64,000 bases of DNA. Origin: Desulfobacterales bacterium. Lineage in GTDB: Bacteria; Desulfobacterota; Desulfobacteria; Desulfobacterales; Desulfosalsimonadaceae. Each line of letters starts with the position of its first letter. Position 1 is the first letter of the stretch. The notes beneath the pieces were generated by a model. That model did no database searches. It saw nothing but the letters and a program-made list of their open reading frames with translations, and was not told the DNA's origin. The translations under genes and the position numbers were made by a program. The stretch is taken from positions 1-64,000 of the forward strand of contig JAGXKN010000012.1 of NCBI GenBank assembly GCA_018335195.1, given 5' to 3'. Of this stretch, positions 4,926 through 44,902 are shown piece after piece.

Positions 4926-4928
4926 CAA

Positions 4929-5699: not shown

Positions 5700-5725
5700 T
5701 GTAATTTCAGGAAAAACCCGAAGAC

Positions 5726-6784: not shown

Positions 6785-6787
6785 GTT

Positions 6788-6943
6788 TTGATGGCACCGT
6801 AAAAAGTCCAATATCTGCGTTACGCGCAATTTCTCAGAATTTCACGTACGGCTAAGTACGCTGCATTCTTCGAAATTGCGCAAGCCTTGATCTTGAACTT
6901 TTTTCGGCGCCATCTGAAATTAGACTTTTTACGAGAGCATCAA
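6788..6943. repeat. Palindromic intergenic element, MITE/REP-like
   Basis: Bases 6790-6914 form one long imperfect palindrome. GATGGCACCGTAAAAAGTC at the left end pairs with AACTTTTTTCGGCGCCATC at the right, and GCGCAATTTC pairs with GAAATTGCGC inside. A second right-end copy (GACTTTTTACGAGAGCATCAA, less its first base) closes the element at 6943. There is no open reading frame. It lies between the GHMP kinase and glyQ. It has the form of a non-autonomous element or structured-RNA repeat. Confidence 0.8.
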
Positions 6944-7221
6944 GTTTTAAGTGATTAAGTGTTTAAGTAAAATCAGAATTTTATCTTTTTGTTGCTTGGC
7001 GGGCATAACATTTCTAAGACTTTCAAGGAAATCCTTTTTTTGCGCTCTGTCGAAATTGCAATTTGTTGCCCTGACGTCGGTGCGGAAAAGCGGGTTTCCG
7101 AGCGGAAATTGAGGCTCCAGGAGGCTCCTGGAGAGAGGAAACGCCTTTTTCGCGCCGCCGATCAGCCAAGGTGCTCACGGGTTTCCTGTCTGCAAAAATA
7201 CCGCCCTGGCGGAATAAACAG

Positions 7222-7240
7222 CTTTTTACGAAGCCATCAA
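7222..7240. repeat. Extra copy of the palindromic element's right end
   Basis: CTTTTTACGAAGCCATCAA repeats the right terminus of the element at 6788-6943 in the same orientation, about 280 bases further on and 33 bases before glyQ. The gene-free stretch 6944-7221 between them has no recognisable gene. It may be the interior of a larger, decayed element bounded by the same ends. Confidence 0.6.
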
Positions 7241-7273
7241 TATTAATTGTACACGCAATCGGGATAAAAGCAA

Positions 7274-8185
7274 ATGTATGTTCAGGACGTGATTTTGGCA
7301 CTGCAGCGCTTCTGGGCGCGCAAGGGATGCGTGCTGGTTCAGCCCTATGACATGGAGGTGGGCGCGGGCACATTTCATCCCTCCACCCTGCTTCGCACTC
7401 TGGGCCCGGAGCCATGGCGGGTGGCCTATGCCCAGCCTTCGCGCCGGCCCACTGACGGCCGGTACGGAGACAACCCCTACCGGCTGCAGCACTACTACCA
7501 GTTCCAGGTCATTCTCAAGCCGTCTCCCAAGAATATCCAGGACCAGTTTATCCAGAGCTTGAAAGCCCTGGGCGTGGATCCACTGGATCATGACATCCGT
7601 TTTGTGGAAGATGACTGGGAATCGCCGACGCTTGGCGCTTCGGGTCTCGGCTGGGAGGTGTGGCTCGACGGCATGGAAATCACCCAGTTTACCTATTTCC
7701 AGATGGCCGGCAGCATCGAGGTGCACCCCGTGTCCGTGGAACTGACCTACGGGGTGGAACGCATCTGCATGTTCCTCCAGGGAGTGGAAAATGTCTTTCA
7801 CCTGCAGTGGAACCGCGAACTTACTTACGGGGATCTGCATCACCAGCTGGAAGTCGAGCAGTCCACGTACAATTTTGAATCCGCGGACATTGACATGCTC
7901 TTTGACTGCTTCGGCAAGTTCGAGGCCGAATCCAGGCGCACGGCCGGGCAGGAAATGGTGCTTCCGGCCTACGAGTATTGCCTGAAATGCTCCCATGTGT
8001 TTAACCTGCTCGAGGCCCGGGGCGCGATCAGTGTGACCGAGCGGACCAGTTACATTGCCCGGATCCGAAACCTGGCCCGCAAATGCGCCGAAGTGTATAT
8101 CCGGCAGCGCGAAAATCTTGGATACCCGATGCTGAAAACCGGCACGGAAACAAACAGGGATCAAAATGAACCGACTGCTCATTGA
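7274..8185 (+). CDS. glyQ: Glycyl-tRNA synthetase alpha subunit
   Basis: 303 residues of the class II catalytic alpha chain of the tetrameric bacterial enzyme that charges tRNA-Gly. It begins with the family hallmark [12 protein letters not shown]-like segment and contains [19 protein letters not shown], where the adenylate site lies. The 3' end overlaps glyS by 20 bases, with GGGA before the glyS start inside glyQ, so the subunits are translationally coupled. Length is standard. Confidence 0.97.
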
Positions 8186-10247
8186 AATCGGAACAGAGGA
8201 AATTCCGTCCGGCTATATCGTGCCCGCGCTTGAGGCCTTCCGGTCCCGGCTGACACAGCGGCTGGCGGACTTGCGGATCGAATGCGGGCCGGCCCAGGTT
8301 TACGGCACGCCCAGGCGCCTGGCGGTGGTTGTGGAGGATGTGGCAGAGCGCCAGAGCCCGGTCACCCACCAATTGATGGGGCCGCCGGAGCGGATGGCAT
8401 TTGACGATAACGGCCGGCCCACCAAGGCGGCCCGAAAATTTGCCGAAAAGGCCGGGGTTTCCGTAAACCGGCTGAAATTAAAGGAAACCGAAAAAGGCCG
8501 GTATGTCTGCATCCGGAAAACCGACCGGGGACGGGCTGCCGCGGGCGTGCTGCGGGAGGTGATCCCTGAGCTCATAGGGGCCATTCCGTTTCCCAAAATC
8601 ATGAGATGGGGCGATCTGCGCACCGCCTTTGCCCGTCCGGTTCATTCCATTGTCGCCCTGCTCGGGGACCGGGCGCTTTCTTTTGTCTTCGGGGATACCA
8701 GAAGCGGCCGCCACACTTTCGGTCACAGGTTCATGCGGCCGGGCAAAATCCGTCTGACCGATTCGGAGGGCTACCTGGATGCCCTGGCAGAAGCTTACGT
8801 GCTGGCTGACATGGAGCAGCGCCGGGCCGTGATGCAGGATCGCATGAAGCGGGCGGTCGGGCAGGCGGGCGGACATATCCTGGAAGATGCCGGGCTGGTG
8901 GAGACCAACACCAACCTGGTGGAATACCCGGAGGTGGTGCTGGGCCGTTTTGGGGAAAAATTCCTGGAACTGCCCAGGGAGGTCCTTGTTACCGCTATGC
9001 GGGAACATCAGCGCTATTTTGCGGTCGTGGACGGCCAGAATGAGATCATGCCGTATTTTATCGCCGTGAACAATACCCGGGCCCGGGATATGCGCGTGGT
9101 GGCCGCAGGCCATGAGCGGGTACTCAAGGCGCGTCTGGAAGATGCCCGGTTTTTTTACCATACAGACCTGAACGTTTCCCCGGATCAGCGCATTGAATCC
9201 CTGAAGTCCGTGGTGTTCCAGGCAGAGCTAGGTTCGGTTTATGACAAGGCCCTGCGCATCCGGAAGCAGGGGGCCATCCTGTGCCGCGATCTGGGTATCG
9301 GCAAGGATGTCCCGGCCCGGGTGGATCGGGCGGCAATGCTGTGCAAAACGGATCTGGTCAGTCATGTGGTAATTGAATTTCCCAAGCTCCAGGGCACCAT
9401 GGGTCGGATTTACGCCCAGACGGCAAATGAGCCCGAGGCGGTGGCCAATGCCATTGAACAACACTACCGGCCGGCTTATTCCGGCGGACCGCTGCCGGCC
9501 ACAATCACGGGTGCAATCCTTTCGATCGCGGACAAGATCGATACCATTTGCGGTTGTTATTACGTGGGCCTGGTACCCACCGGGGCGTCGGATCCCTATG
9601 CCCTGCGCCGGCAGGCAATAGGAATTATTCAGACCGCTCTTGACCGGGAGCTGGAGTTTTCGCTGGCCGGGATCATCCACGCCGGCATGGAAATGTTCGG
9701 CCTGTCCGGCCGGGACCTGGATGACAAGGCTGAGGCGGTTTTCGCGTTTATGCAGAGCCGGATGGCCTACTTGATCGAGGATTCGGGGATCCCCCGGGAC
9801 CTGGCCGCCGCGGCCATATCCGTTTCGGCAGACAATATTTGCGATGTCTGGCGGCGGGCCGGCGCCCTGCAACGCATGAAATCCGCCCTGGATTTTGACT
9901 CTCTGGCAGTGGGGTTCAAACGCGTGGTCAATATCATCCGCAAGGCGGACCCGGCAGACACGGCCGATTCAAAGGTGAATCCGGACTTGTTTGGGGATCC
10001 GGCCGAAACCGCGCTGCATGAAGCGGCCCTGCGGGCCCGGGAAGGCGTATTGCGCCATTTGAAACAGAAGGAAATTGATGCGGCCTTTACAGAGATCGGC
10101 GGATTGAAACCGCAGGTGGACGCATTTTTTGATACCGTGCTGGTCATGGCCGAGGATCCGGCGCTCCGGAAAAACCGGCTGGCCCTGTTAAAACAGATCT
10201 CGGATCTGTTTGACCGGTTGGCGGATTTTTCCAGGATTTCCACGTAA
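8166..10247 (+). CDS. glyS: Glycyl-tRNA synthetase beta subunit
   Basis: 693 residues. The beta chain binds tRNA and is needed for activity with GlyQ. The N-terminal segment [19 protein letters not shown] is diagnostic. The middle contains the HD-like helical domain (around [20 protein letters not shown]), and the C-terminal 110 residues are a DALR-type anticodon-binding domain. It starts within the last 20 bases of glyQ. Length is normal. Confidence 0.97.
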
Positions 10248-25921: not shown

Positions 25922-26950
25922 ATGAAAATCCGGAAAGTCATTCAAAAAGGGCAATCCGAACCCGAAGTGGCCATATACCGGCAGGACCGGTGGGTACCGA
26001 TCTCGCCGGCCATTGCGGGCAGCGGCCTGGCAGAGCGGATCGGCGATCCGGCCTTCACCGATGTGGTTTCACTGCTGGGGCTTCCCCCGGAAAATCGCCG
26101 GGAACTCGAAAGCCGGGTGGATGATTACCTGGCATCCGGGGCGGACCGGGCGGCTGAATATGAAGAAACGCCTGTAATGCCTTTTTTCCCGTTCTCTTAC
26201 CGGGATTTCATGCTGTTTGAACAGCATGTCACCGGCGCCGCCCGGGGGTTTGCCAGGCAGTTCATGCCCGGGGCCTACCGCCTGGCACGGGTTTACGAAA
26301 AGCTTTCCAAAAAGACCTTCCCCAAATTCCGGCCGCACCCCCTGTGGTATCAGAAGCCGATTTACTACATGGGCAACCATTTGAACTTTGTCACCGAAGG
26401 GCATCCGGTGATGTTCCCGTCATACAGCCGGGCCCTGGACTATGAGCTGGAAATCGGTGCCGTGGTCGCACATCCGGTCAAAAATGCCGCTCCGGAACAA
26501 GCACTGGAGGCCATCGGCGGATTCGTGGTGTTTAATGATTTCAGCGCCAGGGACGTGCAGCTGCCCGAGATGCGCAGCGGATTCGGCCCGGTCAAGGCAA
26601 AGCATTTTGCCAATGCCATTTCGCAGACGGTTGTCAGCGCCGACGAGATCCTGCCGCACCTGGATACCTTAAAGGGCCGGGTGATGATAAACGGACAACT
26701 CGTTGTGGAGACCTCGGCTGCGGGCATGTATCACTCCCTTGGCCAGGCCGTGGCCTATGCTTCCCTGGAAGAGCAGCTCCATGCAGGCGAACTCATCGGC
26801 AGCGGCACCCTGCCGGGCGGGTGCGCCATGGAAAACGGAAGATGGGTGAAACCCGGAGATACCATAACCCTGAAGCTTGACCACATTGGCACGCTGACCA
26901 ATCCGATCACGGCCGAAACAAGCCGGCCGGAAAGAAAGGAAAACATATGA
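25922..26950 (+). CDS. Fumarylacetoacetate hydrolase (FAH) family protein
   Basis: 342 residues with the FAH fold. Metal-binding acidic residues are visible in YELEIGAVV and in VFNDFSARDVQ, and the C-terminal segment has LIGSGTLPGGCAMENGRWVKPGD. The family includes hydrolases, hydratases, decarboxylases and isomerases acting on 1,3-diketo or 2-oxo acids, so the exact reaction is open. It overlaps the cyclase-family gene by ATGA, so the two work together; degradation of a cyclic or diketo compound would fit (inference). Confidence 0.85.
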   Translation: MKIRKVIQKGQSEPEVAIYRQDRWVPISPAIAGSGLAERIGDPAFTDVVSLLGLPPENRRELESRVDDYLASGADRAAEYEETPVMPFFPFSYRDFMLFEQHVTGAARGFARQFMPGAYRLARVYEKLSKKTFPKFRPHPLWYQKPIYYMGNHLNFVTEGHPVMFPSYSRALDYELEIGAVVAHPVKNAAPEQALEAIGGFVVFNDFSARDVQLPEMRSGFGPVKAKHFANAISQTVVSADEILPHLDTLKGRVMINGQLVVETSAAGMYHSLGQAVAYASLEEQLHAGELIGSGTLPGGCAMENGRWVKPGDTITLKLDHIGTLTNPITAETSRPERKENI

Positions 26951-27726
26951 CCACCATTATCGATCTGTCCAAGTCCATTCGGTACAATCCGGGAGACCCC
27001 GGATTCATGCGGATCAAGATCAAGCATAAGCTGCACCGGAAAGGCGGATGGCTGGTGCGCCTGCTGGGGCTTCCCTTTCGGATGTTTCCCAAAGGGTTCC
27101 GGGGGTGGGCTGATGATACCATCAAGCACATGGGTGTGCATTCCACCACCCATATTGACGCGCCCTGGCATTACGGACCAGAGACCGGGGGGCAGCCGGC
27201 CCGAACCATAGACCAGGTGCCCCTGGAATGGTGCTACGGTGACGGGGTCATGATCAACATGTCCCATAAGCCGGATTTCGAGCCCATCATGGCTGCGGAT
27301 TTGGAACAGGCCGTGGCCAAAACCGGTTCCAAGATCCGGCGCGGCACCATTGTTCTGATCCGCACGGACCGCGACAAGCTCATGGGAACCCCGGATTACT
27401 TCAAACGCGGCACCGGCATGAGCGCAGAGGCCACCCGATGGCTAATAGAGCGTGGGGTCCGGGTCATGGGCATTGATCAATGGGGATGGGATCTGCCCCT
27501 GCCATGGCAGATTTCCGAAGCCAAGCGGCAGCGAAACCCGGAAGTCTTCTGGGAGGCCCACAGAGTGGGTACCCGGGAGGAATACCTGCACATGGAGCAG
27601 CTCACCAACCTGAAATCCCTGCCGCCGCACGGCTTCAAGGTGGCGGTTTTTCCCCTGAAGATCACCGGCGGCTCGGCCGCCCCGGTGCGGGCAGTGGCGA
27701 TCATGGAAGACGAGAGCGCATCCTAG
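26947..27726 (+). CDS. Cyclase-family (kynurenine-formamidase-like) hydrolase
   Basis: 259 residues. The metal-binding motif HMGVHSTTHIDAPWHYG (about residues 59-75) is the cyclase-family form of HxGTHxDxPxH, and RTDRDKLMG follows. Members hydrolyse N-formylkynurenine, isatin or related amides and lactones with Mn or Zn. It starts inside the stop of the FAH gene (ATGA). The pair resembles small catabolic operons, but neither substrate is indicated. Confidence 0.83.
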   Translation: MTTIIDLSKSIRYNPGDPGFMRIKIKHKLHRKGGWLVRLLGLPFRMFPKGFRGWADDTIKHMGVHSTTHIDAPWHYGPETGGQPARTIDQVPLEWCYGDGVMINMSHKPDFEPIMAADLEQAVAKTGSKIRRGTIVLIRTDRDKLMGTPDYFKRGTGMSAEATRWLIERGVRVMGIDQWGWDLPLPWQISEAKRQRNPEVFWEAHRVGTREEYLHMEQLTNLKSLPPHGFKVAVFPLKITGGSAAPVRAVAIMEDESAS

Positions 27727-31015: not shown

Positions 31016-31297
31016 ATGCAGAACACGGGGCTGAGACGACAAGGGCGGGCTTTGACAAATCCGTGTGAAAATTGCGACATCGAGGAAAAGGTGTATGTCT
31101 GCTGCGGCCGGCACCCGGAAACCGGCCGCCGGCAAGGACTTCAAATCGGTTCAAACCGGGTTGTCATGGCCTGCCCGTTTCTGGATGCCGACGGATGGTG
31201 CATGATTTACGCCCGGCGCCCCCAGGCCTGCCGCGATTTTTTCTGCGAGCGATTCAACAGTTCAAATTTATCTTTACCCTTTAGCCTTGAGCCTTAG
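31016..31297 (+). CDS. YkgJ-like cysteine-cluster protein
   Basis: About 93 residues with eight cysteines. The pattern NPCENCDIEEKVYVCCG, then ACPFLDADGWCMIYARRPQACRDFFC, split here only for description, matches the YkgJ/Fe-S-Zn cluster family, whose members may bind an iron-sulfur or zinc site. The last 12 residues look unrelated to the family and run into AT-rich sequence, so the 3' end may be altered. The start at ATG 31016 is preferred over a TTG at 30947; neither has a clear Shine-Dalgarno. It overlaps the convergent thiolase gene by 4 bases. Confidence 0.65.
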   Translation: MQNTGLRRQGRALTNPCENCDIEEKVYVCCGRHPETGRRQGLQIGSNRVVMACPFLDADGWCMIYARRPQACRDFFCERFNSSNLSLPFSLEP

Positions 31298-32502
31298 CCC
31301 TCGTATTTCCCCACAATGGCAATGCTGCAGATGTTCTGGAACGGAAATCCGCCCAGGTTGTGGGTCATTCCCAGGCGGGGATTTTCGAGCTGGCGCTCGC
31401 CGGCCCGGCCGTGGATCTGCAGATACATTTCATAAAGCATCCGCAGGCCGGAAGCGCCGATCGGGTGGCCGAAGCACTTCAGGCCGCCGTCGATCTGGCA
31501 GGGAATATGCCCGCCCCGGTCATAGAATCCGTCCATGATGTCGCTGACCGCCTTGCCGCGTTCCGAGATGTGCAGGTCTTCGTAGGTTACCAGCTCGGTG
31601 ATGGAAAAACAGTCGTGCAGCTCCATCATGCTGATTTCCTCCCTGGGGTTTTCGATCCGGGCTTCCTTGTAGGCCTGGGTGCTGCACTTGGACGTGGTGA
31701 TGAAATGATCGCCGTCCCAGTCGTTAAACCCCATCTCCTCGCCGCTGCTCAAGGCAAGCTGCAGCGCCTTGACCGAGACAAAATCCTTTTTCCCCATTTT
31801 CCGGGCAATTTCCGGGGTGGTGACAATCGCGCACGCCGAGCCGTCGCTGACGCCGCAGCAGTCAAACAGGCCCAGGGGATGGGCGACAATGGGCGCGGCC
31901 ATGACCTGATCATCCGTGACCTTTTTTCTCAGGTGCGCCTTGGGGTTCATGGCGCCGTTCTCATGACTTTTGGCAGACACGTGGGCCATGGCCCGCTTGA
32001 GGTCCTCATCCTTGATGCGGTACTTGGCGGCATAGGCGCTGGCCAGTTGGGCAAAGGAGCCCGGCGCGGTCAGATTGGGCCACCACTGCCATGCCAGAGA
32101 TCCGGTGTTTGAGCCGCCGGCCGGCAGCCCGCCGTAACCGGTGTCCTTGAGCTTTTCAACGCCAAGGGCCAGGCACACGTCGTAGGCGCCCGAAGCCACT
32201 GCATAGCATGCCCCGCGGAAGGCCTCGGTACCGGTGGCGCAGTAGTTTTCCACCCGGGTTACCGGAATCATGGGCAGCCGGAGCGTGGTGGCAAGCGGCA
32301 TGGCGGTTTTGCCCACGTTGATTTCATCCATGCATGTGCCGAACCAGGCGGCCTCGATGTCATTGGCCTCCACACCCGCGTCGCTGAGCCCTTCCTCAAA
32401 GGCTTCGAGCATGAGTTCCTCTGCGCCGACGTCCCATCGCTCGCCGAACCGGGTGCACCCCATGCCGATGATTGCCACCTTGTCCCTGATGCCTGTTGCC
32501 AT
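31294..32502 (-). CDS. Thiolase, SCP-x/DUF35-associated type
   Basis: 402 residues. The nucleophilic cysteine is in VENYCATGTEAFRGA (about residue 86). The C-terminal part has ELHDCFSITELV and the base histidine in CFGHPIGASG; the second cysteine of classical thiolases (CxG) is absent, as in SCP2-type enzymes. These catalyse thiolysis or Claisen condensation of acyl-CoAs. Such thiolases usually need a DUF35 partner, and one is fused into the next protein upstream. It is the last gene of the minus-strand cluster 37219 to 31294. Confidence 0.92.
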   Translation of the reverse strand: MATGIRDKVAIIGMGCTRFGERWDVGAEELMLEAFEEGLSDAGVEANDIEAAWFGTCMDEINVGKTAMPLATTLRLPMIPVTRVENYCATGTEAFRGACYAVASGAYDVCLALGVEKLKDTGYGGLPAGGSNTGSLAWQWWPNLTAPGSFAQLASAYAAKYRIKDEDLKRAMAHVSAKSHENGAMNPKAHLRKKVTDDQVMAAPIVAHPLGLFDCCGVSDGSACAIVTTPEIARKMGKKDFVSVKALQLALSSGEEMGFNDWDGDHFITTSKCSTQAYKEARIENPREEISMMELHDCFSITELVTYEDLHISERGKAVSDIMDGFYDRGGHIPCQIDGGLKCFGHPIGASGLRMLYEMYLQIHGRAGERQLENPRLGMTHNLGGFPFQNICSIAIVGKYEG

Positions 32503-32675: not shown

Positions 32676-35054
32676 TTATTCCTTACCCTCGTCCGGCGAT
32701 ACCAGTGCAAAAAGCGCCGCATTGGCATCCTCGAGGGACCTGGCATCGTCCATGCGGTTGATTTTTTCAAAATTTTCACTTACCTCTTCTGGCGAGGGCG
32801 GGTTTTGCCCGTCTCCGAGCCGGGCCCCCGGACCGGTGAGCACGGCGGCGCGGTTGAAATATCCCATGCCGGCATTAAATATCTGGCCGGTTTCCTCGCA
32901 TTGCTGGCTGGCCAGGTAGACCACCATGGGCGTGACTAGTTCCGGTTTCATCCGTTCCAGGATATCCGGCGGCATGATGTCTTCTGTCAACCTGGAGGCG
33001 GCCAGGGGCGCCACCGTGTTCACGTGGATGTTGTATTTCTTTCCTTCAAGCTTCAGGGTGTTCATCATCCCTACCTGGGCCATCTTTGCCGCCGAATAGT
33101 TGGTCTGGCCGAAGTTGCCGTAAAGGCCCGCGGCCGAGGCGGTCATGATCACCCGGCCGTATCCCTGCTCCCGCATGACCCTGAATGCCGGGCGGGTGAC
33201 GTTGTAGGCGCCGTTTAAGTGCACGGCCAGCACTGCGTTCCAGTTTTCCGGTTCCATTTTTGTAAAACTCTTATCGCGCAGGATGCCGGCATTGTTGATG
33301 ACGATGTCCACGCGCCCGTAGTTGTCCAGGGCGCACTGGATGATGCTTTCTCCGCCTTCGGTTGTGGCCACGTTGTCATAATTGGCAACCGCCTCTCCGC
33401 CGGCTGCCAGTATTTCATCCACCACTTTCTGGGCCGGGGTAGCTGATCCCTCGCCGGAACCGTCCCTTGCACTGCCCAGGTCGTTTACCACCACTTTTGC
33501 GCCGCGGGAGGCCAATTCCAGGGCGTAGGATTTTCCCAGGCCGCCGCCGGCACCGGTAATAACCGCCACCTGGCCGTCAAAGCGAATTTTCGCCATTTCC
33601 TCGGCCGCCCCGGGGATGGGCCGGGCTTTCCAGAAATAGTTGACAAACCCGCGCTCCTTGTCCTGGGTGCGCTTGCGGAAGACCATCTGCATGGGCAGTC
33701 CCACCTTCACACCGGACAGGTTGCAGTCGGTAAAATCGGCCATGAACCGGCCGCCGTGGTCAAACTGGATCATGCCGTAAATATGCGGCGGGTCATAGGA
33801 GACCGCCAGCATGTCGCCGGTAAAGGTCTTGACCCGGGCCGGCTTGTCTGCAAACTCGTAGTCCACCTGGGTGTGGCGGGCCGTGCATTCCGGGTTGACG
33901 CAAACATCGGTCTTGGGAAACTGCGGCGTGCCGCACTGGTTGCATTTTCCGCCCACAAGGCCCAGGATCATCTTTCTGCGCCGCCATAGCGTGGTTACGG
34001 CCGTCTGGGTGGGGGCTTCGGCCCGGATGCCCATTTCCGGATCAATCAGGTCCCTGAACACCAGCCACTTGGGATAGTTTTCCACGGCTTCCCGGTTTTC
34101 CAGGGTTGTCTTGACCCGCGGGGCGTTTTTAAATGCGCCGATGGCCTCGGTAACCGTAAAGCACAGGGCGTCGCTGCCCTGGCCGAATCCGGCCACCACG
34201 ATTTTTTCGCCCGGCTGGGCCGCATCCAGTGCGGCGGCCAGCATGAGCAGGGGATGGGCGCAACCCGTATCCCCGCAAACCTCGTGCATGTTGTCGATTA
34301 CGGATTCCGGATCTGCCCCGAGCTTCTTTGCGATTTTCTTGTGCTCCGCCTTGAAAAAGCAGGGATAGACCAGCTTGTCAACCTGGTCGATGGTGAGTTC
34401 CAGCTTTTGCAGCAGTCCGTTGACAGCTTCCGGGATGATCTGGGCGTACCCTTCGTCTCTGACCCAGCGTTCCTCCCATGTGTAGTCAAAGCGGTTTTGC
34501 GCGCCCCGGTAGTGATCCACGAAATCATAGGACAGGCTGTAGGCGCCGTTGAACTCGGCGATGACGTTTTGGCTGCCCACGGCAAAGGATGCCGCCCCGT
34601 CGCCGTACCACATCTCGTAAAAACCGCCGGGCTTGGTCTGGCGGCAGTCCCCGGCCGTGACCAGCAGGTTGCCGCCTCCGCCGGCCGCGGCCTCCAGGGC
34701 CGAGAGCAGGGCGCCGGTGCCGGCTTTCTGGGACGCGGTAAAATCCGCGGACCGGATATTCTCCCTTAAGTTTAAAGCCGTCGAAACGATGCCGGCATTC
34801 TGCCGGTCGGCAAAGGGAAAGGAGGTGGATGCCAGGTACAGCCCGCCGATTTCCTGTTTTTCGGGGTTTTCCAGGCAGTTCCGGGAAGCCTCCACGGACA
34901 TGGTGATGGCGTCCTCGTCCCAGTTGCACATGGAGCGTTCGCCCTGGGCCACCATGACAATGGCCGGGGCAAACCAGCCCATGGCCTGATAGATTGCCGA
35001 CCGCGAAAGCCGCAGCCGGGGAACATATGCGCCGTATGAAGTAATGCCGATCAT
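32676..35054 (-). CDS. Three-domain fusion: HMG-CoA synthase-like, DUF35 zinc-ribbon/OB, SDR dehydrogenase
   Basis: 792 residues. Residues 1-350 have the archaeal-type HMG-CoA synthase fold (MIGITSYGAYVPRLRLSRSA, WYGDGAASFAVG, GQGSDA). Residues about 365-480 are DUF35: a zinc ribbon with Cys371, Cys374, Cys385 and Cys390, then an OB fold. Residues about 490-750 are a short-chain dehydrogenase (TGAGGGLG; Ser640, Tyr653, Lys657). By ungapped comparison with remembered archaeal synthases, the catalytic Glu, Cys and His correspond to Thr77, Gln109 (TASQKAGTG) and Pro231, so ordinary synthase chemistry is doubtful. AAGGAG lies 8 bases before ATG 35054; a longer start lacks one. In archaea, DUF35 bridges thiolase to HMG-CoA synthase; here a thiolase gene is next. 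Confidence 0.85.
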   Translation of the reverse strand: MIGITSYGAYVPRLRLSRSAIYQAMGWFAPAIVMVAQGERSMCNWDEDAITMSVEASRNCLENPEKQEIGGLYLASTSFPFADRQNAGIVSTALNLRENIRSADFTASQKAGTGALLSALEAAAGGGGNLLVTAGDCRQTKPGGFYEMWYGDGAASFAVGSQNVIAEFNGAYSLSYDFVDHYRGAQNRFDYTWEERWVRDEGYAQIIPEAVNGLLQKLELTIDQVDKLVYPCFFKAEHKKIAKKLGADPESVIDNMHEVCGDTGCAHPLLMLAAALDAAQPGEKIVVAGFGQGSDALCFTVTEAIGAFKNAPRVKTTLENREAVENYPKWLVFRDLIDPEMGIRAEAPTQTAVTTLWRRRKMILGLVGGKCNQCGTPQFPKTDVCVNPECTARHTQVDYEFADKPARVKTFTGDMLAVSYDPPHIYGMIQFDHGGRFMADFTDCNLSGVKVGLPMQMVFRKRTQDKERGFVNYFWKARPIPGAAEEMAKIRFDGQVAVITGAGGGLGKSYALELASRGAKVVVNDLGSARDGSGEGSATPAQKVVDEILAAGGEAVANYDNVATTEGGESIIQCALDNYGRVDIVINNAGILRDKSFTKMEPENWNAVLAVHLNGAYNVTRPAFRVMREQGYGRVIMTASAAGLYGNFGQTNYSAAKMAQVGMMNTLKLEGKKYNIHVNTVAPLAASRLTEDIMPPDILERMKPELVTPMVVYLASQQCEETGQIFNAGMGYFNRAAVLTGPGARLGDGQNPPSPEEVSENFEKINRMDDARSLEDANAALFALVSPDEGKE

Positions 35055-35104
35055 ATTTGCACTCCTTTTATTCAAGGGTGGTTGAGTCATTAAATGCAAG
35101 GCGG

Positions 35105-37619: not shown

Positions 37620-39317
37620 ATGCCCGTTGGACTGCTTGCCGTTTTTGCCTTTGCCCCGATTCTCGTGGCGCTTGTACTCATGGTGGGACTGCGCTGGCCT
37701 GCAACGCGGGCCATGCCGCTGGCCTGGCTGGCTGCTGCAGCAGCCGCGGTGTTTGTCTGGAAAATGGACCTGATTGCCGTGGCAGCCTCAACGCTCCAGG
37801 GATTTGCCAGTGCGGTGACCGTTCTGCTCATTGTATTCGGCGCGTTGATGATTCTCTATACCCTGTCGGAAAGCGGCGGTATGGAGACGATCAATCACGG
37901 GTTCCACGGAATTTCAACAGACCGCCGGGTTCAGGTCATTATCATCGCATTTCTCTTCGAGGCGTTCCTGGAAGGTGCGGCCGGATTCGGCACGCCTGCG
38001 GCAATCGCCGCCCCGCTGCTTTTGAGCCTGGGATTTCCGGCCCTGGCAGCCGTACTGGTCGCCCTGATTTTAAATACCGTTCCGGTGACCTTCGGGGCCG
38101 TAGGTACGCCCGTGTGGTTCGGGCTGAAGAACCTGGAAGGCAAAATCGAAGCCGCGGTGGCTGAACACGGCGCCAGCCTGCCTTTTTCCGATATGGACGG
38201 GTTTAACATGCTCGTGGGCCAGTGGGCTGCGGTATTTCATACCGTGATGGCCTTTGTGCTGCCCATTTTCGTGGTCTGCCTCATGACCCGGCTTTTCGGG
38301 CAGAACCGTTCCTTTAAAGAAGGCCTTGCCGTGTGGAAATTTTCCCTGTTTGCATCTGCGGCTTTTGTGATTCCTTTTCTGGCTTCGGCCTTTTTTATCG
38401 GCGAGGAATTTCCTGCGCTTATCGGCGGACTGGTGGGACTGCCGGTGGTGCTTTATGCAGCTAAAAGAAAATGGCTGCTTCCCGCACAGAGCTGGGATTT
38501 CGGGCCGCAGTCGACCTGGGAGGCAGAGTGGACCGGGGAAATCGCCACTGCGCAGAAAATCGAGTTTACCCCGCAAATGAGCCAGTTCCGGGCATGGCTG
38601 CCCTATGTTCTTATCGGCCTGATTCTCGTGCTGACCCGGGTGCAGTTTCTGCCCCTGGTGCAGTGGGTCAAGGCCTGGAGCATCGGGGTGTCGGATATTC
38701 TCGGCCAGGCGGGTATCGGTTACAGCCTCCAGCCCTTCTACAACCCGGGCATTATTCCTTTTATCCTGGTGGCCGTGCTGACCGTGGCGCTGCACCGCAT
38801 GCCGCCGCAAAAAGTAAAAAAGTCATGGAGCGAGGCTTTCCGCCGGATGAAAAATCCGACCATTGCATTGATTTTTGCCGTGGCCCTGGTACAGATATTT
38901 AAGAATTCGAGCATGAATCCTGCGGGCTATGCTTCCATGCCCCTTTCCATGGCCGAGGCCGTAGCTGCGGTGGCCGGAGGGACATGGCCGCTGTTTGCCC
39001 CGTTTATCGGTGCACTGGGCTCGTTTATCACCGGCAGCAACACGGTCTCGGATCTGCTGTTTGCCGAATTCCAGTACAACATTGCCGCCGCCCTTGATCT
39101 GCCCCGGCAGATTATCGTCGCCCTGCAGGCGGTGGGCGGGGCTATGGGCAACATGGTCTGCATCCACAACATTGTGGCAGCCTCTGCCACAGTGGGCCTG
39201 GTGGGCATGGAAGGCGTGATTTTGAAACGCAATGTCGTGCCCCTGCTGCTTTACGGGATCGTGGTCGGGGGCATGGGGCTGATTTTTGCCTATCTGCTGT
39301 TTCCGGGGGCATTTTGA
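37620..39317 (+). CDS. lctP: L-lactate permease
   Basis: 565 residues with about 13 hydrophobic helices. The conserved permease segments are EAFLEGAAGFGTPAAIAAPL near residue 120 and GSFITGSNTVSDLLFAEFQ near 470, followed by AVGGAMGNMVCIHNIVAA. Proteins of this family import lactate (and glycolate) with protons. AAGGAGG lies 6 bases before the ATG. It heads an operon with the D- and L-lactate dehydrogenase genes and so supplies their substrate. Confidence 0.95.
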   Translation: MPVGLLAVFAFAPILVALVLMVGLRWPATRAMPLAWLAAAAAAVFVWKMDLIAVAASTLQGFASAVTVLLIVFGALMILYTLSESGGMETINHGFHGISTDRRVQVIIIAFLFEAFLEGAAGFGTPAAIAAPLLLSLGFPALAAVLVALILNTVPVTFGAVGTPVWFGLKNLEGKIEAAVAEHGASLPFSDMDGFNMLVGQWAAVFHTVMAFVLPIFVVCLMTRLFGQNRSFKEGLAVWKFSLFASAAFVIPFLASAFFIGEEFPALIGGLVGLPVVLYAAKRKWLLPAQSWDFGPQSTWEAEWTGEIATAQKIEFTPQMSQFRAWLPYVLIGLILVLTRVQFLPLVQWVKAWSIGVSDILGQAGIGYSLQPFYNPGIIPFILVAVLTVALHRMPPQKVKKSWSEAFRRMKNPTIALIFAVALVQIFKNSSMNPAGYASMPLSMAEAVAAVAGGTWPLFAPFIGALGSFITGSNTVSDLLFAEFQYNIAAALDLPRQIIVALQAVGGAMGNMVCIHNIVAASATVGLVGMEGVILKRNVVPLLLYGIVVGGMGLIFAYLLFPGAF

Positions 39318-39354
39318 GCAAAGAAACCAAGATCCGGGAAATGATGGGGAGAAG

Positions 39355-40737
39355 ATGAATAAAAAACTGGTGTGCGAATTTGAAAACTTGGTGGGGCGGG
39401 AAAATGTCATGGCAGAGCAGGCCGACCGCCAGGCGTATTCATATGATTCGGCCGTGCTGGAACCGGTGGTGCCGGCCCTGGTGGTCCGGCCGGAAACATC
39501 GGCTCAGCTCGGCAAAACCGTGCGGCTGTGCAATGAAAACGGACTGCCCCTGACCGTGCGGGGTGCGGGCACGAACTTAAGCGGCGGCACCATTCCGGCT
39601 GCACCCAATGCCGTGGTGGTGACCACCAACGGGCTTTCCGGTATTATCGAAATCAATTCAGAGGACATGTATGCCGTTGTAGAACCCGGGGTGATCACTG
39701 CCCAATTTGCAGCCGCAGTAGCGGCAAAGGGGCTTTTTTATCCCCCGGATCCGGGCAGCCAGACCGTGTCCACGCTCGGCGGCAACGTGGCGGAAAACGC
39801 CGGCGGACTGCGCGGTCTCAAGTACGGGGTTACCAAGGACTATGTCATGGGCATCGAGTTTTTCGATGTCAACGGCGAGCTTGTCAAGTCCGGATCGAAA
39901 ACCGTCAAGTGCGCCACGGGATTTAATCTTTCCGATTTAATGGTGGGATCCGAAGGGCTGCTCGGGGTTTTCAGCCGGATCATATTCAAGCTGATTCCGC
40001 CGCCCAAGGATTCCCGGGCCATGATGGCCGTGTTCGACTCGGTGGAAAAGGCCTCGGAAACCGTTTCCGCCATTATTGCCGAGCAGATCGTGCCCTGTAC
40101 CCTGGAGTTTCTTGACAACTTTACCATCCGCACGGTCGAGGATTTTCGGCATGCCGGATTGCCGACAGACGCCGGGGCCCTGCTGCTCATCGAGGTTGAC
40201 GGGCACCCGGCAGGGGTCGAAGATGACGCGGAAAAGATCCGAAAAATCTGCGAGCAGAAAGGGGCCGGGAAAATCCAGCGCGCGGGATCGGCAGCAGAAA
40301 AGGACCTGATCTGGCAGGCCCGGCGCGATGCGTTGCCCGCCCTGGCGCGATTAAAGCCCACCACGGTGCTCGAGGACGCCACGGTGCCCAGAAGCCGGAT
40401 TCCGGAGATGGTCAAAAAAATCCGGGACATCGGGGAAAAATACCACATTGACATCGGCACATTCGGCCACGCCGGGGACGGCAATCTGCATCCCACTATT
40501 TTGACCGACAAGCGCGATAAAGACGAATTTGCGCGCGTGGAGCAGGCAATTGACGAAATTTTCGAGGCGGCCCTGGCCATGGGCGGCACCCTTTCCGGCG
40601 AGCACGGCATCGGGCTGGCCAAGCGAAAGTACCTGGAAGGCGAGACCAGCCGGGGCACGATCCGGTATTCCAGGCGGCTGAAGGAAACGTTTGATCCGGT
40701 CAATATTCTGAATCCCGGCAAAGTGATCGGAGACTAG
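39355..40737 (+). CDS. glcD: FAD-linked D-lactate/glycolate dehydrogenase (GlcD family)
   Basis: 460 residues. The PCMH-type FAD-binding domain (about 40-215) has GLPLTVRGAGTNLSGG and PPDPGSQTVSTLGGNVAENA; the C-terminal oxidase domain has FGHAGDGNLHPT. It oxidises D-lactate or glycolate to the 2-oxo acid and hands electrons to the iron-sulfur partner encoded next. ATG 39355 follows GGGGAG; it is 37 bases after lctP. The same gene order occurs in the Desulfovibrio organic-acid oxidation region, which favours lactate. Confidence 0.92.
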   Translation: MNKKLVCEFENLVGRENVMAEQADRQAYSYDSAVLEPVVPALVVRPETSAQLGKTVRLCNENGLPLTVRGAGTNLSGGTIPAAPNAVVVTTNGLSGIIEINSEDMYAVVEPGVITAQFAAAVAAKGLFYPPDPGSQTVSTLGGNVAENAGGLRGLKYGVTKDYVMGIEFFDVNGELVKSGSKTVKCATGFNLSDLMVGSEGLLGVFSRIIFKLIPPPKDSRAMMAVFDSVEKASETVSAIIAEQIVPCTLEFLDNFTIRTVEDFRHAGLPTDAGALLLIEVDGHPAGVEDDAEKIRKICEQKGAGKIQRAGSAAEKDLIWQARRDALPALARLKPTTVLEDATVPRSRIPEMVKKIRDIGEKYHIDIGTFGHAGDGNLHPTILTDKRDKDEFARVEQAIDEIFEAALAMGGTLSGEHGIGLAKRKYLEGETSRGTIRYSRRLKETFDPVNILNPGKVIGD

Positions 40738-40740
40738 TGC

Positions 40741-42129
40741 ATGGCGGATATCGAAGAACTGGTGCGGCTGTTAAAGGAGCTGGAAGAAGAACTGGTCCAC
40801 TGCACCCGCTGTGGCATGTGCCAGGCCGTATGCCCCCTGTATGGCGCAACCGGACGGGAAACCGACGTGGCGCGGGGTAAAATCGTACTCGTGGAAAACC
40901 TGAGCAAAGAGATCCTGGATGACCCGGAAGCGGTCAAACAGCGTCTGGACCGCTGTCTGTTGTGCGGATCGTGCGAGGCGGCATGCCCGGGGGGTGTGCC
41001 GATCATGGATATTTTTTTGAAGGCTCGTGCCATTATCACCGGGTACCTGGGCCTGTCCCCGGTGAAAAAAGCCATTTTCCGGGGATTGCTTTCCAACCCG
41101 GACCGCTTTGACAAACTGCTGAAATGGATGGCCCGGCTGCAGGGTCCGTTTTCCAGGCAGGTCAGTGAAACCCTGGGCTCCTCATGTGCGCGGTTCATGT
41201 CCCCGGTTATCGGGGACCGCCACTTCATGCCGATCGCCTCTGAGGCCTGGCATAAAAAGGGGCATCGGCAATTTTTGCGGCCCAGGGACCCGGGCCTGCG
41301 GGTGGTTTTTTACCCGGGATGCCTGGTGGACCGGATCTTCCCCCGGGTGGCAGAAGCGGTCATGAAGGTTCTCGATTTCCACGAAGTGGACGTTTTTGCC
41401 GCAGACCGGGTGCCGTGCTGCGGCATTCCGGCGCTTTCCGCGGGCGACCGCCAGAGCTTTGAAAAACTGGTCCGACAGAACATGGATATCCTGGATTCCC
41501 TGGATTTTGATTACCTGGTCACCCCCTGTGCCACCTGTACCGCCACCATCCGAAAGTTCTGGCCCGCCATGATCGAGGCCGGGGCCGGCGGGCTGACCGG
41601 CGAAATCCAGGAGAAGGTATTGGCCGCATCCGAGAAAACCCGGGATATCAACGAACTGCTCGTTGATGTGCTTGGCGTGCAGGCCCCGGCAGCGCCGGCA
41701 TCCGGCGCAAAAAGCCTCACTTACCACGACCCGTGCCATTTGAAAAAGTCCCTGGGGATTTCCCGGCAGCCGCGAACCGTGCTGGCGGCCGCAGGGGATG
41801 TAAATTTTGCGGAAATGCGCGAGCCGGACCGATGCTGTGGTATGGGCGGCAGCTTTAACCTGCAGCACTACGGGTTGTCAGATAAAATCGGGCAGAAAAA
41901 ACTGGCCGCAATTCTTGAAACCGGTGCGGATACCGTGGCCACCGGATGCCCCGCCTGCATGCTCCAGCTTACCGATCTGCTGTCCCGCGGCGGTCATGCC
42001 CTGGCGGTGAAACATCCGGTGGAAGTGTATGCCGAAGCCCTGCAGCAGCGTCCCGGCCTCCAAAAGCCGGTGGATGCGCAAAAACCTGGAAATACGGATT
42101 ATGACAAAGCAACAGAAACTTATCGATGA
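40741..42129 (+). CDS. Iron-sulfur (CCG-domain) subunit of the D-lactate dehydrogenase, GlcF-like
   Basis: 462 residues. Two [4Fe-4S] ferredoxin motifs (CTRCGMCQAVCP near 20, CLLCGSCEAACP near 75) are followed by two cysteine-rich CCG domains (VPCCGIPALS, PCATCTATI; HDPCHLKKSLG, DRCCGMGGSF, CPACMLQL). CCG domains bind noncubane [4Fe-4S] clusters in related proteins. It should carry electrons from the GlcD-like flavoprotein to the membrane pool. It starts 3 bases after glcD and overlaps lutC by 29 bases. Confidence 0.92.
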   Translation: MADIEELVRLLKELEEELVHCTRCGMCQAVCPLYGATGRETDVARGKIVLVENLSKEILDDPEAVKQRLDRCLLCGSCEAACPGGVPIMDIFLKARAIITGYLGLSPVKKAIFRGLLSNPDRFDKLLKWMARLQGPFSRQVSETLGSSCARFMSPVIGDRHFMPIASEAWHKKGHRQFLRPRDPGLRVVFYPGCLVDRIFPRVAEAVMKVLDFHEVDVFAADRVPCCGIPALSAGDRQSFEKLVRQNMDILDSLDFDYLVTPCATCTATIRKFWPAMIEAGAGGLTGEIQEKVLAASEKTRDINELLVDVLGVQAPAAPASGAKSLTYHDPCHLKKSLGISRQPRTVLAAAGDVNFAEMREPDRCCGMGGSFNLQHYGLSDKIGQKKLAAILETGADTVATGCPACMLQLTDLLSRGGHALAVKHPVEVYAEALQQRPGLQKPVDAQKPGNTDYDKATETYR

Positions 42130-42742
42130 ATTCGCGGAAAAGGCCCGGGCCGTATCAACCAAAGTGCGCGTTGTGGACGCCATGGCCGAAGCACTGGAAT
42201 ATGCCGTCACCCTGTGCCGGGACAAGGAGGCCTGCCAGGTGCTGGCCTCCGGGTGCGAGCATCCCCTGTCCGAGCCGGCAGAGGATCTCTGCGGTTTAAA
42301 GCAGTGGCAGAAATTGATCGCCGCCCCGGCAATGGATCAAAAAGTTTTGGATGCATTGATTCCGATGTGCCGCGAAGCCGGCATCGGTCTGATTCAAAAG
42401 GGGCTGGGCGGATATGCCGGGGGCATTGACGTGGGACTGACCGGGGCGGATTTGGGAATATCGAATACCGGCAGCATCGTATTGAATTGTCCGGACGAGG
42501 ACTTGCGCCTGGCCACCATGATCAGCGAAGTCCATATCGCCGTGCTCCGGGCCGAAGATATTTACGCGGATTCCCATGATATCGAAGCCGCGCTTTTGGC
42601 GCTTTTTACCGACGCCCCAGACTATACCGCATTTATTACAGGCCCCAGTCGAACTGCGGATATCGAGCGCGTGCTTTCGCTGGGGGTGCACGGCCCGCTT
42701 GAAATGCACGTGCTGATCCTGGGGCAATCCGAAAAAGGATAG
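42101..42742 (+). CDS. lutC: LUD-domain protein, LutC/LldG-like
   Basis: 213 residues: a helical N-terminal region, then the LUD domain with GGIDVGLTGADLGISNTGSI and LATMISEVHIAVLRAEDI. This is the small subunit of the flavin-free L-lactate dehydrogenase (LutABC/LldEFG). The ATG at 42101 lies within the 3' end of the Fe-S subunit gene. The large subunit gene follows after 6 bases. Confidence 0.9.
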   Translation: MTKQQKLIDEFAEKARAVSTKVRVVDAMAEALEYAVTLCRDKEACQVLASGCEHPLSEPAEDLCGLKQWQKLIAAPAMDQKVLDALIPMCREAGIGLIQKGLGGYAGGIDVGLTGADLGISNTGSIVLNCPDEDLRLATMISEVHIAVLRAEDIYADSHDIEAALLALFTDAPDYTAFITGPSRTADIERVLSLGVHGPLEMHVLILGQSEKG

Positions 42743-42748
42743 ATCCGT

Positions 42749-44902
42749 ATGCAGACCGCCGGAAACATGAAGGACTACCGGAAGCAGCTCGTGGCCCAGT
42801 TGAAAAACGGGTTCCAGCGAAAGGCGCTGGACAATTTTGCCGTGGCCTACAGGCAGGGGCGGGAGAAGAATTTTGCCGGCATGGATCGGCAGGCCCTGGT
42901 GCAGGGTATCCGGGCGGCCAAGGATGACGCCGCATCCCGGATGGACGAGCTCTATGCGCAGTTCTGCCGGCGTGCCGAAGCCGCAGGCGTGCATGTGCAT
43001 TTTGCCGCCTCGGATCACCAGGCAAACGAAATTATATCCCGGATTGCCGAAGAAAACGACTGCCACCGGATCGTGAAGTCCAAATCCATGACCGCAGAGG
43101 AGACCCTTCTCAACGATTTCCTGGAAAACCGCGGATACGAGGTTATTGAAACCGATCTGGGCGAGTGGATTATCCAGCTTCGCGGCGAAGGCCCTTCCCA
43201 CATGGTCATGCCGGCCATCCATCTTTCCAGAAACGAGGTAAGCCGGCTTTTTACCGAGGTGACCGGAAAACAGCAGGACACAGACATTGAAAAGCTTGTC
43301 AAGGTGGCCCGCCGCGAGCTGCGGCAGCGTTTTATCCGGGCGGACATGGGGATTTCGGGTGCCAACTTCGCCATTGCTGAAACCGGGACCCTGGGCATCG
43401 TGTCAAACGAGGGCAATGTCCGACTGGTCACCACCCTGCCGCGGGTGCATGTGGCCCTGGTGGGCATTGACAAGCTAGTTCCGGGCATCCGCGAGGCCCT
43501 GCAGACATTAAAGGGTCTGCCCCGAAACGCCACGGGCCAGGCCATTACCTCTTATCTGACCTGGATTACCGGCGCCAACCCGTCGGCGGCCTCGCATTCC
43601 GGCCGAAAGATTATGCACGTGGTGTTTCTGGACAATGGCAGGCGCGCATTGGCTCGGGACCCGGTATTTTCCGAGGCGCTGCGGTGTGTGCGCTGCGGTG
43701 CGTGCGCCAACGTGTGCCCCGTTTACCGACTGGTGGGCGGGCATGCATACGGTCATATTTATATCGGCGCCATCGGCCTGGTGCTGACCTATTTTTTCCA
43801 CGGCAGAAACCGGGACCGGCAACTGGTGCAGAACTGCCTGAACTGCCAGGCCTGCAAGGACGTTTGCATCGCGGGAATCGATCTGCCCCGACTGATCAAG
43901 GAAGTCCACGTGCTGAGCCAAGGCAGCGAAGACAAGCCGGTGTTAAATTCCATGGCCGCTTTTGTGCTCAAGCGGCGCCGGCTGTTTCACGGCCTGCTGC
44001 GTTCGGGCAGGTACATGCAGAAACCCGTGACCCGGGGAACTCCGTATATGCGGCATCTTCCGCAGGTGCTGTTCAGGGATCAAGATTTTAAGGCCCTGCC
44101 GGCGATTTCGGCAAAGCCCTTCCGGGATCGGTGGGATGCGGCCCGGCATTCGCCGCCGCATCCGGAGTACCGGGTGGCCCTGTTTTCCGGATGCCTGCAG
44201 GATTTCGTCTATCCGGAACAGCTGGAGGCCGGGATGGGCCTGCTGGCGGGCCGGCCCGTGGAGGTGACGTTCCAGTCCCGGCAAGGATGCTGCGGGCTGC
44301 CGCTGTATATGCTGGGCAAGCGCGAGGCCGCGGCAGATCTGGCCGCTTGGAATATCAGCCATATTGATCCTGCGGAATACGATTTTATCCTGACATTCTG
44401 CGCTTCCTGCGGCTCGCACATGCGGGAGAATTACCCGTTTCTGCTGGAAGGCGCCTCCGGCAGGCGCGTGAAGGCGGACCAGTTTGCCGCCAAGGTTATT
44501 GATTTCAGCTCCTTTATGCAGATGGTGATGCCGGATTCAGAGCCTGTCCCGGCCGCAACAGAAAAGCTCAAGGCGGCCTATCACGCGCCCTGTCATTTAT
44601 GCCGGGGCCTTGGGGTGAGCCGGGCGCCGCGGGCACTGCTGACAAAGTTCGGATATGAATATCTGCCCCATGGAGAAGAAGAAACCTGCTGCGGTCTGGG
44701 GGGTACGTATTCTTTCAAGTTCCCGGAAATCTCTGCAGAGATCCTTGACAAAAAGCTGGATGCGGTCAGCGGAACCGGGGCGGACCTTCTGGTCACGGAT
44801 TGTCCGGGATGCGTGATGCAGCTGCGCGGCGGGGCGGTCAGGCAGGGCCGGGCTTTTGCAGTGCGGCATATGGCTGAAGCTCTTGCGGGCAGGCAGACAT
44901 AG
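42749..44902 (+). CDS. L-lactate dehydrogenase large subunit, LutB-LutA fusion
   Basis: 717 residues. An N-terminal LUD domain (about 60-300; RIVKSKSMTAEE, ETDLGEWIIQL) and two [4Fe-4S] motifs (CVRCGACANVCP near 312, CLNCQACKDVC near 364) make up the LutB part. A C-terminal pair of CCG domains (GCCGLPLY, CASCGSHMRE; HAPCHLCRGLGV, EETCCGLGG, CPGCVMQL) makes up LutA. In Bacillus these are separate proteins; the fused form is known from sulfate reducers. With LutC it should oxidise L-lactate to pyruvate. It is the last gene of the operon. Confidence 0.92.
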   Translation: MQTAGNMKDYRKQLVAQLKNGFQRKALDNFAVAYRQGREKNFAGMDRQALVQGIRAAKDDAASRMDELYAQFCRRAEAAGVHVHFAASDHQANEIISRIAEENDCHRIVKSKSMTAEETLLNDFLENRGYEVIETDLGEWIIQLRGEGPSHMVMPAIHLSRNEVSRLFTEVTGKQQDTDIEKLVKVARRELRQRFIRADMGISGANFAIAETGTLGIVSNEGNVRLVTTLPRVHVALVGIDKLVPGIREALQTLKGLPRNATGQAITSYLTWITGANPSAASHSGRKIMHVVFLDNGRRALARDPVFSEALRCVRCGACANVCPVYRLVGGHAYGHIYIGAIGLVLTYFFHGRNRDRQLVQNCLNCQACKDVCIAGIDLPRLIKEVHVLSQGSEDKPVLNSMAAFVLKRRRLFHGLLRSGRYMQKPVTRGTPYMRHLPQVLFRDQDFKALPAISAKPFRDRWDAARHSPPHPEYRVALFSGCLQDFVYPEQLEAGMGLLAGRPVEVTFQSRQGCCGLPLYMLGKREAAADLAAWNISHIDPAEYDFILTFCASCGSHMRENYPFLLEGASGRRVKADQFAAKVIDFSSFMQMVMPDSEPVPAATEKLKAAYHAPCHLCRGLGVSRAPRALLTKFGYEYLPHGEEETCCGLGGTYSFKFPEISAEILDKKLDAVSGTGADLLVTDCPGCVMQLRGGAVRQGRAFAVRHMAEALAGRQT

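Follow-up and report, generated by a model that had tools for sequence, protein, structure and literature searches.

Complexes in which a protein of the HMG-CoA synthase fold meets a thiolase and a DUF35 protein are the closest described relatives of the system reported here, a gene that joins an HMG-CoA-synthase-like domain, a DUF35 domain and a short-chain dehydrogenase/reductase (SDR) in one chain. The gene lies in a stretch of 64,000 nucleotides ("the window", positions 1 to 64,000 of contig JAGXKN010000012.1, assembly GCA_018335195.1) from a member of the Desulfobacterales, family Desulfosalsimonadaceae. Papers are cited by PMC number. The archaeal thiolase/HMG-CoA-synthase complex (PDB 6esq), in which CoA is reported at the interface, has the same synthase fold, and among solved chains its thiolase matches the window's best; it differs in its intact catalytic triad, its place in the mevalonate pathway, its separate DUF35 protein and the absence of an SDR. 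In PhlABC of Pseudomonas (PDB 5m3k, 5mg5, 9skh) the synthase-like subunit PhlA lacks the Cys, Glu and His of the triad, as the domain described here does, and has thiolase-fold and DUF35 partners, but the three proteins are separate, SDR and SCP2 are absent, and the complex performs a C-acylation in antibiotic biosynthesis. PhlA is reported to be without the key Cys and Glu, residues of PhlC alone acting in acyl transfer (PMC6392133), and both PhlA and the archaeal synthase partner a thiolase-fold subunit and a DUF35 protein (PMC6392133, PMC12329534).

Other systems tie DUF35 or the SDR to beta-oxidation. BbsAB, the benzoylsuccinyl-CoA thiolase (7pxp), serves anaerobic beta-oxidation and has a DUF35-type subunit beside its thiolase, but no synthase-like domain. 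Its dehydrogenase, BbsCD, is separate. Peroxisomal MFE-2 (17beta-HSD type 4, yeast Fox2p) shares hot-dog hydratase, SDR and SCP2 domains with this locus and supplies the nearest solved SDRs, but has no synthase-like or DUF35 attachment and orders its domains differently. In the steroid side-chain complexes Shy-Sal and ChsH1-ChsH2-Ltp2, DUF35 is fused to the preceding beta-oxidation enzyme and docks it onto a thiolase-fold enzyme; there a MaoC hydratase stands in place of the SDR and an aldolase in place of the thiolase, and no synthase-like domain takes part. The aldolase of ChsH1-ChsH2-Ltp2 is said to be necessary against an unfavourable hydration (PMC11321319, PMC12329534), and direct channelling in Shy-Sal has been doubted, its linkers being long and flexible (PMC12329534). 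BbsA has been aligned as a DUF35 domain (PMC12329534), and DUF35 has been named a molecular staple (PMC10398937).

DUF35 proteins fused to thiolase-superfamily, SDR, SCP2 and hot-dog domains were described in 2010, when PhlA was also called inactive (PMC2954200), so the pieces of the fused protein were already known. Titles and abstracts of the open-licence literature gave no description of such a protein within an MFE-2/thiolase operon, of family-wide triad loss or of SDR-SDR exchange, and the accessible parts of PMC5109826, PMC6776118 and PMC13101534 hold nothing on the fused operon. We propose that the protein is probably a beta-oxidation scaffold, in which a dead synthase domain anchors a (3R)-hydroxyacyl-CoA dehydrogenase to a thiolase.

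Loss of the catalytic triad in the synthase-like domain

The fused gene is real, and its order of HMG-CoA-synthase-like domain, DUF35 and SDR was confirmed. An earlier reading made from the letters alone (the "sequence-only reading") had described these parts in one protein, and Pfam, NCBIfam and the structural model bear it out. The Pfam models ACP_syn_III_C, OB_ChsH2_C and adh_short score above cut-off and zf-ChsH2 slightly under (22.8 vs 23.2 bits), and the archaeal HMG-CoA synthase models of NCBIfam cover the N-terminal domain below their cut-offs (PRK04262, 204 of 244 bits; TIGR00748, 156 of 353 bits).

An AlphaFold model of residues 1-486, computed with the window protein and 50 homologues as input (pLDDT 85.8, pTM 0.89), has the thiolase-superfamily fold of synthase type. 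It superimposes on the archaeal HMG-CoA synthase chain 6esq_I with a Z score of 44.6 (2.1 A over 333 residues, 28% identity); PhlA, the top Foldseek match, is tied with it (Z 42.9 to 43.7, 32-33% identity), and a chain of MucABC, a complex known here from its entry and molecule titles, follows at Z 40.5 and 23% identity. The description of the domain as of archaeal HMG-CoA synthase type holds for the fold; in sequence PhlA is at least as close a relative.

In the alignment to solved chains, the Glu, Cys and His of 6esq fall on Thr77, Gln109 and Pro231, where an ungapped comparison had put them. PhlA has Cys, Gly and Gln at these columns. Our homologue alignment holds 131 rows: 89 fused, 37 unfused and 5 that a contig end cuts short. 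Of these, 115 are distinct (74, 36 and 5, respectively), and counts out of 115 refer to them. Not one of the 115 has Glu, Cys or His at its respective column (gaps: two at column 77 and one at 109, where one row has X), and neither does any of 20 more distant rows, taken from loci hand-picked from the phylum match list with one fused gene among them. Thr occupies column 77 in 111 of the 115 rows and Pro column 231 in 109, and column 262, Asn in 6esq, is Asp or Glu in 110. A shifted alignment was considered and rejected: within five columns of each site, Cys reaches at most 10 of 115 rows (at -1), Glu 2 and His 5. Since both near and distant rows lack the triad, its loss is general within the sampled set; it is a trait of the whole family and not of the window protein alone. 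The alignment to solved chains upheld the placement of all three residues, and no homologue row restores the ordinary ones.

Column 109 is Gln in 62 rows and Leu in 39; Ile occupies it in 6 rows and Met in 3, and Val, Glu and Ala occur in one each. Being so varied across homologues, it does not hold Gln as a conserved replacement, and the analogy with KSQ decarboxylases, drawn in the sequence-only reading from Gln109, is not supported, on this count and in view of the altered His and Asn columns. A mevalonate-pathway HMG-CoA synthase was likewise rejected: the domain scores under the family cut-offs, the triad is gone, and no gene in the window's genome exceeds the cut-off of PRK04262. Cys232 and His238, raised earlier as residues that might prove catalytic, lie off the catalytic columns, though they are kept in 110 and 102 of 115 rows; His267 is kept in 110. 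Thr77, Cys232, His238 and His267 are strong in near relatives and, save Thr77, fade with distance (distant rows: Thr77 18/20, Cys232 5/20, His267 10/20).

Partner domains and partner genes

The zinc-ribbon cysteines of the DUF35 domain (Cys371, Cys374, Cys385 and Cys390) are kept in all 115 rows, as in a PhlABC-type protein. The SDR keeps its cofactor glycines and Ser640, Tyr653 and Lys657 in 51/51 fused genes, and the same holds for 43/43 MFE-2 genes. Its nearest solved relatives are peroxisomal: it scores 444 bits against yeast MFE-2 (summed over two SDR stretches) and 306, 297 and 264 bits against the rat (1gz6), human (1zbq) and fly enzymes, compared with 179 bits for the best solved SDR not named MFE-2 and 143.5 bits for the best FabG. 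The fused SDR is thus of the peroxisomal MFE-2 type with intact catalytic motifs, and activity on (3R)-3-hydroxyacyl-CoA is predicted. An SCP2 domain ends 39 of the 46 fused genes that are complete at the 3' end. The window protein has none, like those of L069, L072, L077, L088, L115 and L119 (L numbers are our locus handles). Within the window's genus another member lacks it, and in three further members the complete frames (791-819 amino acids) are too short to hold it.

Neighbouring genes were compared in 80 loci with 81 genes, the top-ranking of 572 confirmed relatives from named genomes. A thiolase follows on the same strand within 1 kb in 67 of the 81. Among the 14 others, 11 frames leave the contig, two stop at most some 300 bases short of the contig end, and one is L073. 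In L073 (10001-11824; record labelled chromosome) the fused gene stops after residue 527 and the next 9.6 kb hold no thiolase, reflecting either a deletion or an assembly fault. One neighbourhood survey found the thiolase in 20/20 loci, and it is present in 19/20 of the more distant loci. Cys88 of the thiolase occurs in 68/68 aligned sequences, His296 in 65 and His346 in 64, the remainder being gaps. Among solved chains, the window's thiolase is nearest in sequence to 6esq_A, its counterpart in the archaeal complex, and the BbsB chain of 7pxp is also among its matches (140 bits). A synthase-like protein, a DUF35 domain and a thiolase with an intact active site are therefore encoded together, as in PhlABC.

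Upstream, an MFE-2-like gene directly precedes the fused gene in 34 of the 37 fused loci whose upstream sequence extends for 2 kb or more, and 41 of 42 upstream MFE-2-like proteins carry the hydratase motif (a motif of our own choice). In the window this gene ends 50 bases before the fused gene, and the thiolase starts 173 bases after it. An acyl-CoA dehydrogenase gene follows the thiolase in 22 of 34 loci within 1 kb and in 26 of 34 within 6 kb, a gene that we call TetR-like, for which NCBIfam gave no match at the chosen threshold, lies ahead in 21 of 30, and acyl-CoA ligase and crotonase-like genes occur at some loci. MFE-2, fused protein and thiolase form a conserved beta-oxidation module that recurs across the Desulfobacterota.

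A gene of the class III CoA-transferase family is found somewhere in 13 of 34 loci. One representative scores 199 bits against alpha-methylacyl-CoA racemase and 158 against formyl-CoA transferase among solved chains; in NCBIfam it finds CoA-transferase models only, all far under cut-off, and the label of racemase was not adopted. The window's genome has one relative of this gene elsewhere, 55% identical (L166, G000:C87:453-1571).

Origin of the fusion and probable exchange between two SDRs

Of 60 near relatives, 42 match the synthase-like/DUF35 pair; in a set of 394 genomes taken from the window's phylum, at least 100 do so at E up to 1e-60. Among the matches listed, all 20 with at least 60% identity sit in open frames of 811-985 amino acids, and those with 57% or less in frames of 407-629, except in genomes G164 and G140, whose longer frames hold start-codon open reading frames (ORFs) of 494 and 469 amino acids. 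Named records place the fused form in Desulfosarcina alkanivorans, Desulfatibacillum, Desulfomonile and Smithella.

In a tree of the HMGCS-like/DUF35 part (100 rows), the fused genes group in a single clade, whose 70 rows comprise 64 fused, 3 unfused and 3 cut ones, with three changes in all; clade support is 93, below the star of the tree tool, and the method is a quick one. Many separate fusion origins were therefore rejected, and the near-single clade makes one fusion event likely; L100 and L101, which lie within the fused clade and keep the remainder of the operon, would have lost the SDR afterwards. The unfused L128 sits on a long branch next to the long-branched fused L115. In the same tree L106 (2388-3919), on a contig filed as Phycisphaerales, is near-identical to the gene of the Syntrophaceae record L122; its contig was probably binned wrongly in a metagenome. 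Five loci with an unfused HMGCS-like/DUF35 gene (L126, L127, L130, L133 and L135) have a separate SDR gene of about 302 amino acids about 2.1 kb downstream, 67-68% identical to the SDR of the window's MFE-2.

The SDR-SCP2 half of the fused genes is related to that of the MFE-2 gene in the same operon, pointing to a shared origin of the two. In the SDR tree, fused and MFE-2 copies are mixed, with 17 changes, or 15 when the long rows L115 and L117 are left out; without these rows, a single clade of fused SDRs, named beforehand as a group, is rejected (p-AU 0.0032). Across 35 operons, mean identity between the two SDRs is 78.9% within and 73.5% between operons, a difference that none of 10000 permutations reaches, and the own MFE-2 partner is the best match in 14 operons where one is expected. 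The natural reading of the mixed tree is that the two SDRs of an operon look homogenised by gene conversion, which fits better than repeated fusion; repeated capture of an SDR explains the tree less well. Counting against gene conversion, 21 of the 35 operons have their closest MFE-2 SDR in some other operon, and for L088 the own partner comes 33rd.

The longest identical stretch is in L097, where the SDRs of the fused gene (6087-8858) and the MFE-2 gene (3824-5953) share 466 bases, through recent gene conversion or metagenome misassembly. L092 has 96 identical bases and the window pair 24. A 208-base identical stretch in L102 was not counted, nor were the matches at the first bases in L103 and L109, as all of these stem from overlapping reading frames.

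Proposed assembly, rival explanations and gene layout

The sequences show a synthase-like domain that has lost its catalytic residues, a thiolase and an SDR that have kept theirs, and genes that travel together. On the model of the archaeal complex and PhlABC, DUF35 would clamp the thiolase and the dead synthase domain together, the latter serving as a structural partner and pocket wall. The MFE-2-like hydratase would yield (3R)-3-hydroxyacyl-CoA, the SDR tethered behind DUF35 would oxidise it, and the thiolase would cleave the 3-ketoacyl-CoA in the same assembly, pulling the unfavourable oxidation forward. The pull logic of the hydratase-aldolase systems is here carried over, by analogy, to the dehydrogenase step, where it should be of importance to anaerobes near their energetic limit. 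In peroxisomes a racemase, MFE-2 and an SCP2-type thiolase form a set for branched chains and bile acids, and from this set comes our guess that the substrates may be branched or bulky acyl-CoAs. We speak of "coupling" and not of "channelling" because of the linker doubts raised in PMC12329534.

The best structural matches, being synthase-like subunits of thiolase/DUF35 complexes, argue for this assembly, and PhlA is a solved precedent for a non-catalytic synthase-like scaffold. Three suggestions of the sequence-only reading gain from these results: that the domain may be a scaffold, that DUF35 is the likely link to the neighbouring thiolase, and that the SDR, whose catalytic motifs are intact, adds a redox step. 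That reading had missed the MFE-2 type of the SDR, its common origin with the SDR of the adjacent gene, and the conserved three-gene module.

Several points weigh against the assembly. We infer the complex, its substrate and the coupling itself. The MFE-2-like protein carries its own SDR, a second one being unneeded for the pathway as such, and unfused relatives manage without the fused one. The truncated L073 and L158 have no thiolase nearby; in L104, L122 and L132 the upstream gene is an SDR gene in which no hydratase part was detected; and by eye the window's ORF list has no acyl-CoA dehydrogenase directly after the thiolase. The full-length model (pLDDT 72.0, pTM 0.58, residues 1-45 below 50) leaves the domain packing unreadable. 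Such complexes can also be biosynthetic, as PhlABC is (PMC6392133), and the conservation of Thr77, Cys232 and His267 could reflect a residual function of the pocket.

That last point leads to the rival in which the synthase-like domain performs a real but altered chemistry, either KSQ-like through Gln109 or at a new site made of Cys232, His267, His238 and Thr77. The high conservation of these four residues among the 115 rows speaks for it, as do Gln109 in 53 of 74 distinct fused rows and the existence of a FabH C112Q structure in the PDB. Leu, however, takes column 109 in 15 of the 74 fused rows and in 20 of the 36 unfused ones, Cys232 and His267 fade in the distant rows, the catalytic His column is Pro and the Asn column Asp or Glu, and PhlA, of the same fold, is reported to be non-catalytic (PMC6392133); we regard altered chemistry as very unlikely. 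A biosynthetic or acyltransferase complex in the style of PhlABC or archaeal mevalonate synthesis, with the SDR reducing a condensation product, would agree with the ties of DUF35 to lipid and polyketide synthesis (PMC2954200). It fits poorly with an SDR of MFE-2 type, an (R)-hydratase carrying SCP2, the acyl-CoA dehydrogenase that directly follows in 22 of 34 loci, the acyl-CoA ligase and crotonase-like genes, and a genome without a gene over the PRK04262 cut-off, and is in our judgement unlikely.

The fused SDR might instead be redundant, without a coupling role, persisting through chance and through gene conversion with the adjoining gene. Conversion between near repeats requires no function, as the identical bases of L097 illustrate, and L100 and L101 have dropped the SDR while keeping the rest of the operon. 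The catalytic residues are nevertheless present in all 51 fused SDRs, and 64 of the 67 rows of known state in the fused clade are still fused, which leaves redundancy decidedly improbable. The two SDRs may also have a structural relation. In yeast MFE-2 the two SDR domains of one chain pair, and the fused SDR could pair with that of the MFE-2-like protein, gathering hydratase, dehydrogenases, SCP2 carriers and thiolase in one particle around the dead synthase, with gene conversion keeping the pair matched; this arrangement, for which we met no description, is conceivable, though we would not expect it.

If docking through a dead synthase domain is correct, the rule that DUF35 couples a preceding enzyme to a thiolase-fold enzyme would extend from hydratases to dehydrogenases, and the large HMG-CoA-synthase-like family would gain a probably non-catalytic role, for which reason its genes should not count as evidence of a mevalonate pathway. 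The locus would also offer a concrete assembly for probing coupling in anaerobic fatty-acid or hydrocarbon breakdown, and a case of domain capture followed by ongoing exchange between adjacent genes.

The coordinates are collected in Table 1. The fused gene starts with an ATG at 35054, preceded by AAAGGAG (read by eye), and its stop codon is at 32678-32676; a TTG at 35099 was considered as an alternative start and not preferred.

Table 1. Positions, in the window, of the fused gene, its parts and the adjoining genes
Feature	Coordinates	Strand	Basis
Fused gene, HMG-CoA-synthase-like + DUF35 + SDR, 792 aa	32676..35054	-	ORF list, Pfam, NCBIfam
HMG-CoA-synthase-like domain lacking catalytic Glu/Cys/His, residues 1-338	34041..35054	-	alignment, model, homologue columns
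Thr77 codon (catalytic Glu position)	34824..34826	-	alignment to solved chains
Gln109 codon (nucleophilic Cys position)	34728..34730	-	alignment to solved chains
Pro231 codon (catalytic His position), followed by Cys232	34362..34364	-	alignment to solved chains
Stretch with codons of conserved Thr77, Cys232, His238, His267	34257-34826	-	homologue columns
DUF35, zinc ribbon and OB fold, residues about 366-479	33618..33959	-	Pfam, model, homologue columns
SDR domain, MFE-2 dehydrogenase type, residues about 491-735	32850..33584	-	Pfam, motifs, solved relatives
C-terminal tail, residues 736-792, SCP2 absent	32679..32849	-	comparison with fused relatives
Upstream MFE-2-like gene: hot-dog (R)-hydratase, SDR, SCP2, 704 aa	35105..37219	-	Pfam
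Downstream thiolase, 402 aa, Cys88, His296, His346	31294..32502	-	Pfam, NCBIfam, motifs

Two further groups of genes were noted by eye in the ORF list. At 37620-44902 a lactate permease gene is followed by genes for an FAD-linked oxidase and iron-sulphur proteins of the lactate-utilisation type. At 25922-27726 a fumarylacetoacetate-hydrolase-like gene overlaps a cyclase-like gene by a few bases.

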